A DNA stretch of 49,925 nt, taken from the NCBI RefSeq assembly GCF_029882185.1, contig NZ_JAOULD010000008.1, positions 1-49,925 on the forward strand. Reading direction: 5' to 3'. The translations under genes were made by a program, and so were the position numbers. A model generated the notes under the pieces. That model ran no database searches. It saw nothing but the letters and a program-made list of their open reading frames with translations, and was not told the DNA's origin. Shown here one piece after another: positions 17,537-39,672 of this stretch (the first letter of the stretch is position 1; the number at the start of each line of letters is the position of its first letter). This stretch comes from Candidatus Nitrosopumilus sp. (GTDB lineage: Archaea > Thermoproteota > Nitrososphaeria > Nitrososphaerales > Nitrosopumilaceae).

Positions 17537-17953
17537 CTATCTCTCAATTTCTTCTTTTATGCTTTGCATGGCCTGCTCTGTTCCACTTTTGATGTGCTTT
17601 TTTATCATCCCTGTAAACATGCTCATCATGCCAGTTAGTTTGATATCCCAATGTGTTGTGAGTTTAGTTTTTTCACCATTGGATGTAAGTGATATGATCT
17701 TTTTACCATCAATGATTCCTTTGGTGAATATCGCTTCAATTTTTTCTTTGGGTTGAATTTTGACTTCTTGTAAGCATTTTTGGTCTCTGAATGCTATTGT
17801 CACTTCTCGTTTGACTATGCCTGCTTCTTTAGAAATATTTCTCACTTCTTTGGTTCCTTTCCAAAACTTTGGCTCGTTGTCGATGTCTGATACAATATCC
17901 CACACTTTGTCAATATTTGCATTAATCTCAATTTCAACATCAATTGTAGTCAT
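17537..17953 (-). CDS. SRPBCC (START-like) ligand-binding protein
   Basis: 138 residues with the polyketide-cyclase/dehydrase pattern: an initial strand VEIEINANIDKVWDIVSDIDNEP, a curved sheet, and a long C-terminal helix GMIKKHIKSGTEQAMQSIKEEI. This fold has a hydrophobic cavity for lipids or isoprenoids. The gene is followed within 5 nt by a membrane glycosyltransferase, so handling of a lipid substrate is a reasonable inference. Its ATG at 17953 lies 60 nt from the candidate structured RNA, which is transcribed in the opposite direction. Confidence 0.85.
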   Translation of the reverse strand: MTTIDVEIEINANIDKVWDIVSDIDNEPKFWKGTKEVRNISKEAGIVKREVTIAFRDQKCLQEVKIQPKEKIEAIFTKGIIDGKKIISLTSNGEKTKLTTHWDIKLTGMMSMFTGMIKKHIKSGTEQAMQSIKEEIER

Positions 17954-18012
17954 GTTCTATATCCATTTATGTCTCGCATTAAATATATTAGATTCCCACA
18001 ACATCTCAAATA

Positions 18013-18091
18013 GACTGTGATGGGTAACATGCCTAAAATCCGGAACATTAACTCCAGTTCCAATGGCGTTTGCCATTCTTCCGTCACAGTC
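18013..18091 (+). ncRNA. Candidate structured RNA (small ncRNA or 5' leader element)
   Basis: A 79-nt three-way-junction-like structure. The closing stem pairs 18013-18024 with 18080-18091: eight perfect Watson-Crick pairs (GACTGTGA with TCACAGTC), then four more including two G-U pairs. These wobbles would be A-C mismatches on the other strand, so the plus strand is the transcribed one. Inside, GGAAC (18042-18046) pairs with GTTCC (18057-18061). Directly adjacent, AATGGC-GTTT-GCCATT (18062-18077) forms a six-bp tetraloop hairpin. A TATA-like TTAAATATATTA lies about 25 nt before the stem. The ATG of the next gene is 20 nt after it, so it could be a stand-alone RNA or a riboswitch-like leader. 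I recognise no Rfam family. Confidence 0.6.
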
Positions 18092-18110
18092 ACTTAAAAT
18101 TTGAAAGAAA

Positions 18111-18326
18111 ATGAAACCCACAAAATACATGCCAAAAATTGAAACCTTGGATGGTGCAGGTTTTTGGAAAAATGCATATGCTCATCAACGAGGGAAATTA
18201 TTGAATAAAGTCAACGTTCCCGAAGATCAAATTGTTGAACTAGTTAACAAAAAATACATGGAACTTCCTGCCGCTTTAAGATATGAAATTGAAACCAGTG
18301 GTATTAACAAAAAAGATTTACAATGA
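18111..18326 (+). CDS. Conserved-looking small protein (71 aa), unknown function
   Basis: 71 residues, mostly helical and basic at the N-terminus (MKPTKYMPKIETLDGAGFWKNAYAHQRG). The ATG at 18111 lies 20 nt after the structured RNA; an ATG at 18129 would also work. There are no membrane segments, Cys pairs or catalytic motifs, and I do not recognise a family. It is followed 40 nt later by the tRNA-binding OB-fold gene. The shared strand and spacing suggest one transcript, which would place both under control of the structured leader if that RNA is regulatory. Confidence 0.7.
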   Translation: MKPTKYMPKIETLDGAGFWKNAYAHQRGKLLNKVNVPEDQIVELVNKKYMELPAALRYEIETSGINKKDLQ

Positions 18327-23889: not shown

Positions 23890-23966
23890 GGGATTGTGGT
23901 CTAGCTTGGTATGATTCTGCGTTTGGGACGCAGAGGTCGGGAATTCAAATTTCCCCAATCCCACCA
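23890..23966 (+). tRNA. tRNA-Pro (anticodon TGG), CCA encoded
   Basis: Complete cloverleaf. The acceptor stem GGGATTG pairs with CAATCCC, followed by discriminator A and an encoded CCA (23964-23966). The anticodon stem CTGCG/CGCAG encloses the loop TTTGGGA with anticodon TGG. The T stem GGGAA/TTCCC encloses TTCAAAT. No intron is visible. It borders a segment of broken accessory genes, and tRNA genes are common integration sites, but I see no repeated tRNA 3' end in the window. Confidence 0.95.
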
Positions 23967-39393: not shown

Positions 39394-39672
39394 GTGTGCT
39401 GGGAGTAACCCTCCTTCTGTTTTCACGATATTTAGCTTTGCAGCCTACCTGAACCTAGTACAGGAACTTTAAGTTCTGTTTGGCTTTGCTCCATGTGGGT
39501 CGTCTTTTTCATTCCTTTTATGGAAACCTCAGGTTTTGCCATCACTGTGCGCCATATTGGATTTTTTTCTGCTCCGTTGCCAACCATCTCTGGTTATCTA
39601 TCTCCAGATCACATTTCCTGTTTGGAGGGAGGAGTTTCCTCTGCCGTAGCAGCGTGTCGTGCTCCAGCTCAC
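39394..39672 (-). ncRNA. rnpB: RNase P RNA component
   Basis: Catalytic RNA that cuts the 5' leaders of tRNAs, 279 nt on the minus strand. The ends pair as helix P1 (GTGAGCTGG with CCAGCACAC, one A-A mismatch). Universal blocks are present in order: GAGGAAACTCC (CR-I-like), GGAGCAAAGCCAAACAG, GGTTCAGGTAGGCTGC matching the GAACCCGGGTAGGCTGC block of bacterial RNase P, and a 3' ACAGAAGGAGGGTTACTCC near CR-IV/CR-V. Length is typical for archaea. An oligo-T terminator follows. Small ORFs reading through it are artefacts. It lies downstream of a methyltransferase gene on the same strand. Confidence 0.85.

Follow-up and report, generated by a model that had tools for sequence, protein, structure and literature searches.

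The question raised by positions 18013-18091 of this DNA is whether they hold a leader that controls the genes downstream or a gene whose product is the RNA itself. Both roles had been considered in the first-pass annotation, which placed here, in the window (the whole stretch of 49,925 nt that was analysed), a structured RNA of no known family, either a riboswitch-like leader for a 71-aa gene and a tRNA-binding protein gene or a free small RNA. Our analysis points to the latter: the element is probably a free-standing small RNA gene acting in trans, and belongs to an undescribed family that is clade-specific in Nitrosopumilaceae-type archaea. Its fold, strand, conservation, promoter conservation and independence from neighbours were established by computation. 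The features concerned are the following, with genera denoted g1, g22 and so on.

17537-17953, minus strand: SRPBCC-domain gene, upstream neighbour of the RNA
17976-17994, plus strand: putative promoter GCATTAAATATATTAGATT (TATA box and conserved GATT), about 30 nt 5′ of the RNA start
18013-18091, plus strand: gene of a small structured RNA of 79 nt with a rod fold, with covariance-model matches in 11 genera and compensatory changes in 18 of 25 pairs
18013-18022, plus strand: 5′ strand of stem P1, 10 bp with 18082-18091; two-sided changes in 7 of 10 pairs, 97.8% of cells paired
18023-18033, plus strand: 5′ strand of stem P2, GGUAACAUGCC, pairing with 18065-18074 with a single C bulge; two-sided changes in 7 of 10 pairs
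18034-18041, plus strand: 5′ side of the internal loop, UAAAAUCC, near-invariant in genus g1 and shorter in g26 and g31
18042-18046, plus strand: 5′ strand of stem P3, GGAAC, pairing with 18057-18061; two-sided changes in 4 of 5 pairs
18047-18056, plus strand: apical loop, AUUAACUCCA (alignment A3)
18057-18061, plus strand: 3′ strand of stem P3, GUUCC (pair counting)
18062-18064, plus strand: 3′ side of the internal loop, AAU (alignment)
18065-18074, plus strand: 3′ strand of stem P2, GGCGUUUGCC, containing the arms of a hairpin drawn earlier (alignment and pair counting)
18075-18081, plus strand: 7-nt one-sided bulge, AUUCUUC (alignment)
18082-18091, plus strand: 3′ strand of stem P1 (pair counting)
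18094-18102, plus strand: TTAAAATTT, about 30 nt before the ATG at 18129, conserved in many g1 sequences
18129-18326, plus strand: 65-aa gene, not part of the RNA, without match in Pfam and NCBIfam searches

That a structured RNA lies at these coordinates is borne out by its folding energy, as the single sequence reaches -30.2 kcal/mol versus -15.0 (sd 2.9) for shuffled versions (z -5.3), none of the 200 shuffles folding as well. The predicted fold, supported by covariation, is an unbranched bent rod in which the 10-bp stems P1 and P2 are separated by a 7-nt bulge, and an asymmetric internal loop leads from P2 to the 5-bp stem P3 with its (U/A)AACUCC loop. RNAalifold, run on a MAFFT alignment of 18 distinct sequences (A1), returned this rod and not the fold of the first-pass annotation, with GGYAACATGCC (18023-18033) paired with GGCGTTTGCC (18065-18074). 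In pair counting on the MAFFT alignment, two-sided changes were seen in nine pairs of the rod versus five of the earlier fold. Among 37 divergent sequences, two-sided changes were observed in 18 of the 25 rod pairs and 96.2% of the cells are paired, as compared with 29-49% in slid controls; the eight column pairs that rank highest by paired change, out of 2850, all fall within the rod. Counted on the tree, co-substitutions numbered 33 versus 6.4 expected, a value reached by none of 5000 shuffles. This counting was used in place of a G-test/APC covariation statistic with a custom phylogenetic null, which yielded no significant pair and whose null was judged too permissive. Of the two alignments, A3 had been fitted to the covariance model; A1 is independent of it and gives the same fold, with less variation. 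Finally, as the supported pairs contain 59 G-U cells versus 8 A-C cells, the plus strand is fixed, and the earlier argument for this strand from G-U pairs was correct.

The fold first proposed was a coaxial double hairpin (a three-way fold), in which a 12-bp closing stem enclosed the hairpins GGAAC/GTTCC and AATGGC-GTTT-GCCATT. Covariation across relatives, sought in all three stems, was found in the closing stem, which is indeed long but measures 10 bp and not 12, and in GGAAC/GTTCC, which is P3. By contrast, AATGGC/GCCATT shows no co-substitution in 37 relatives and pairs in 175 of 222 cells, and its arms pair instead with GGYAACATGCC, just past the closing stem. P2 is missing from the first-pass annotation, where its segments were either unpaired or assigned to a different hairpin. 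For the sequence of the window itself the earlier fold is favoured by only about 2 kcal/mol, so that this hairpin was a natural misdrawing from one sequence; the rod is the better fold in 28 of the 37 sequences, and the earlier fold may persist as a minor alternative conformation. We also considered, and rejected, a four-way junction that included a local GGCA/UGCC hairpin, as P2 explains the same bases better. In L085 (2469-2545), P2 is kept through compensating changes (ACCC / GGGCUUU) that abolish the start codon of an overlapping frame.

The unpaired parts of the rod differ in their conservation. AACUCC is present in the apical loop of all 37 sequences of alignment A3, as UAACUCC in most and as AAACUCC in g30 and g36, and the bulge reads AYUCUUC in most sequences, AAACUUC in g23 and g24, and AYUCUGU in g29. 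The internal loop UAAAAUCC seems dispensable, as it is reduced to about 3-5 nt in L070, L078 and L079 (g26 and g31), where the apical loop and the bulge are intact.

The RNA was recovered by DNA search in 33 of 36 genus relatives (the window's own genome not being counted), and a single match in another family was spurious. Of 400 genomes of the class, 133 gave a covariance-model match, with a single copy per genome; they represent 11 genera, all in one family. A refined model gave no match outside that family among 398 genomes of the phylum, and within the family g22, g25, g28 and g33 were likewise without a match. When named genomes were scanned with a pattern, 73 contigs were recovered (Nitrosopumilus, Nitrosopelagicus, Cenarchaeum and relatives), and the covariance model confirmed every one of them; one is labelled Nitrososphaeraceae, with match coordinates identical to those in G390, a genome placed in the window's family. 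Viral contigs gave no match to a strict pattern. As the RNA-bearing genera form one clade with one loss (g33) on a 23S tree, a single gain followed by at least one loss is the simplest history.

Upstream of the RNA, the TATA-like box noted in the first-pass annotation is real, and it is conserved together with the RNA. The putative promoter (AAATATATTRGATT) lies about 30 nt upstream, and the alignment of genus relatives shows AAATATATTAGATT to be very conserved at this distance and the RNA core to be almost invariant, with variable sequence between them. Such a constant spacing with a free spacer sequence is the expected trace of a TATA box that fixes where transcription starts, and the archaeal TATA-to-start spacing would place the start at the RNA itself, whose ends, 18013 and 18091, were defined by stem P1.

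Downstream, the comparison of sequences after the stem across loci showed no clear terminator, and read-through into the next gene is possible in genus g1. TTAAAATTT could be the TATA box of a leaderless downstream gene or a weak AT-rich 3′ end of the RNA. This gene had been given a start at 18111, 20 nt from the RNA; conservation begins at 18129 (MPKIETLDG), which is the more likely start, and the distance is then about 38 nt. Its 65-aa product matches nothing in Pfam or NCBIfam, and a gene for a MetRS-beta-like tRNA-binding protein follows it. In several genera the 65-aa gene is conserved next to the RNA, and an open frame across the RNA continues into it in L066 and L069.

The RNA and its promoter occur together in at least six genomic contexts, in support of the free small RNA. 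In the common one, a minus-strand SRPBCC gene precedes the RNA, which is followed by the 65-aa gene, the tRNA-binding gene and a minus-strand TBP gene. In Cenarchaeum-type genomes no 65-aa gene was found beside the RNA, which directly precedes the tRNA-binding gene, and in g31 the RNA and the TBP gene face each other, the convergent opposite-strand neighbour being 83 nt away. In g29 (Nitrosopelagicus-type) the RNA lies at an unrelated locus, where a 132-aa gene follows it at about 30 nt (L073, L074 and L075); in G106, noted with these genomes, the 23S gene is about 4.4 kb downstream of the RNA. The RNA occupies yet other loci in g30 and g36, and in g36 it and a gene of the opposite strand stand tail-to-tail, 6 nt apart. 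The promoter is kept at nearly all of these loci, including those in other contexts. As it travels with the RNA, and as the 13-mer AATATATTAGATT has a single occurrence in each of two genomes searched for it, the conserved unit is the promoter plus the RNA and not a leader for a fixed set of genes. In L171 (g36), the ancestral site upstream of the tRNA-binding gene still has the promoter motif but no RNA; the motif may now drive this gene, and the RNA lies elsewhere with its own copy.

These contexts also bear on the idea of a cis-acting leader, that is, a riboswitch or a protein-binding autoregulator of the operon formed by the 65-aa gene and the tRNA-binding gene. In its favour, many g1, g23, g24, g26 and g32 genomes have the RNA on the same strand as these genes and about 26-66 nt ahead of them, and in those of Cenarchaeum type it immediately precedes the tRNA-binding gene. 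However, in g29, g30 and g36 the tRNA-binding gene stands at its ancestral place without the RNA, which is elsewhere with its promoter; in g36 and g31 the gene that follows lies on the opposite strand, and the RNA cannot be a leader there; and the tRNA-binding gene has, as we read it, a conserved TATA-like box of its own. A leader in cis should have a constant same-strand set of genes downstream, and none was found; at least six contexts, some without the 71-aa gene of the first-pass annotation, make this reading unlikely. An own promoter, as judged by its sequence conservation, and independence from neighbours were both found, as expected of a trans-acting sRNA. A small protein gene of 22-25 codons, with ATG at 18020 or 18029 and the structure as its by-product, can practically be dismissed. 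Although most g1 sequences keep its frame open (e.g., MGNMPKIRNINSSSNGVCHSSVTVT), variable columns are spread 8:6:8 over the codon positions, the in-frame ATG is absent in g26, g29, g31, L034, L085 and L076, and in L085 it was lost by the very changes that keep the stem paired. The frame, not conserved and broken in g26, g29, g31 and others, was accordingly rejected.

Two further readings depend on pairing by the AACUCC loop. A guide for modification (H/ACA or C/D), or an RNA that pairs with rRNA through this loop, is very improbable. GGAGUUA, the complement of UAACUCC, does occur at one 23S site in several genomes, but the site is absent in g1, g23 and g24 despite the loop and present in genomes that lack the RNA; it thus does not track the RNA, and pairing of the loop with 23S was rejected. 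The complementarity of the whole RNA to five 23S loci was scanned, and the apical loop alone, with this one match, was followed up. Nor are guide features or a matching Rfam family found: the sequence past the stem varies between genera and has no conserved ACA, and of the boxes sought (C, RUGAUGA; D, CUGA), the GUGAUGG of g1 becomes GUAAGGG or GUGAGGG elsewhere, within a paired stem, and no CUGA is conserved. Antisense regulation of mRNAs in trans, through AACUCC as an anti-Shine-Dalgarno-like loop, is a rather doubtful possibility, and its likelihood is already contained in that of the trans-acting RNA, of which it is a special case. A conserved unpaired loop is what would be expected of a seed, and archaea are known to have trans-acting sRNAs, one reported example being sRNA162 of Methanosarcina mazei (PMC3510493). 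Yet a search of five genomes for sites complementary to the extended loop (CTGGAGTTA), of low power, gave no target common to three or more genomes.

For the free-standing, trans-acting RNA, which we infer to be transcribed as a discrete molecule, the following sequence of events can be proposed. Its own TATA promoter would start transcription at about position 18013, and the transcript of about 79 nt would take the bent-rod fold. Two conserved unpaired faces, the apical AACUCC and the pyrimidine-rich bulge AYUCUUC, would then be linked by the two 10-bp helices, and both would most likely be contacted either by a protein, giving an RNP, or by another RNA. Recognition by a protein is more likely than recognition by one fixed RNA target. 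Tentatively, the RNA might be a clade-specific RNP component whose conserved faces bind a dedicated protein; it would have arisen once, in the common ancestor of most Nitrosopumilaceae genera, and been retained by nearly all of them. If so, it would represent a new functional class of archaeal RNA and not another antisense regulator.

Nitrosopumilus and Nitrosopelagicus rank with the most abundant cells in the ocean and are major nitrifiers. The RNA, previously undescribed, is present in most genera of ocean ammonia-oxidising archaea, and its retention with its promoter as a single copy across 11 genera, even at other loci, speaks of strong selection. The literature search gave no description of it, and the publications retrieved report no structured RNA family of marine ammonia-oxidising archaea beyond the universal ones. 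Moreover, the covariance model makes the RNA directly testable in existing RNA-seq and environmental transcriptomes. Our verdict is that the RNA family is new, although its general kind is known, and that it merits an Rfam entry.

When compared with known RNAs, no Rfam 15 family is matched at the gathering score, and the best matches below threshold are chance-like and on the wrong strand; given the strong covariation, the earlier statement that it belongs to no known family holds. A strong Rfam match (187.7 bits) elsewhere in the window is the archaeal RNase P RNA at 39394-39672 (minus strand), and a tRNA-Pro (TGG) lies at 23890-23966 (plus strand). For the RNA itself, ARAGORN calls no tRNA or tmRNA, and the supported fold is an unbranched rod with no cloverleaf. 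The archaeal H/ACA and C/D guide sRNAs resemble it in size and as single-copy intergenic genes, and are unlike it in that here there is no ACA box or conserved box C/D, and no stable rRNA target for the apical loop. Y RNAs, the partners of Ro60/TROVE, are of similar length and have a terminal stem, a bulged stem and a pyrimidine-rich unpaired region. Although this general anatomy is alike, a Y RNA was rejected, as the Ro60/TROVE protein (PF05731) was absent in 10 of the 10 genomes searched, with a positive control, and Rfam gave no match. Ocean-V (RF01714, PMC2864571), an RNA motif from marine metagenomes, exemplifies motifs that were likewise discovered by comparative genomics in marine microbes and have no known function, but here no Rfam family is matched. 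Finally, the archaeal trans-acting sRNAs, such as sRNA162, are alike in being intergenic, with their own promoter and independent of neighbours, a likeness limited to general features; in contrast to them, this RNA has a fold that is conserved over a family of archaea.
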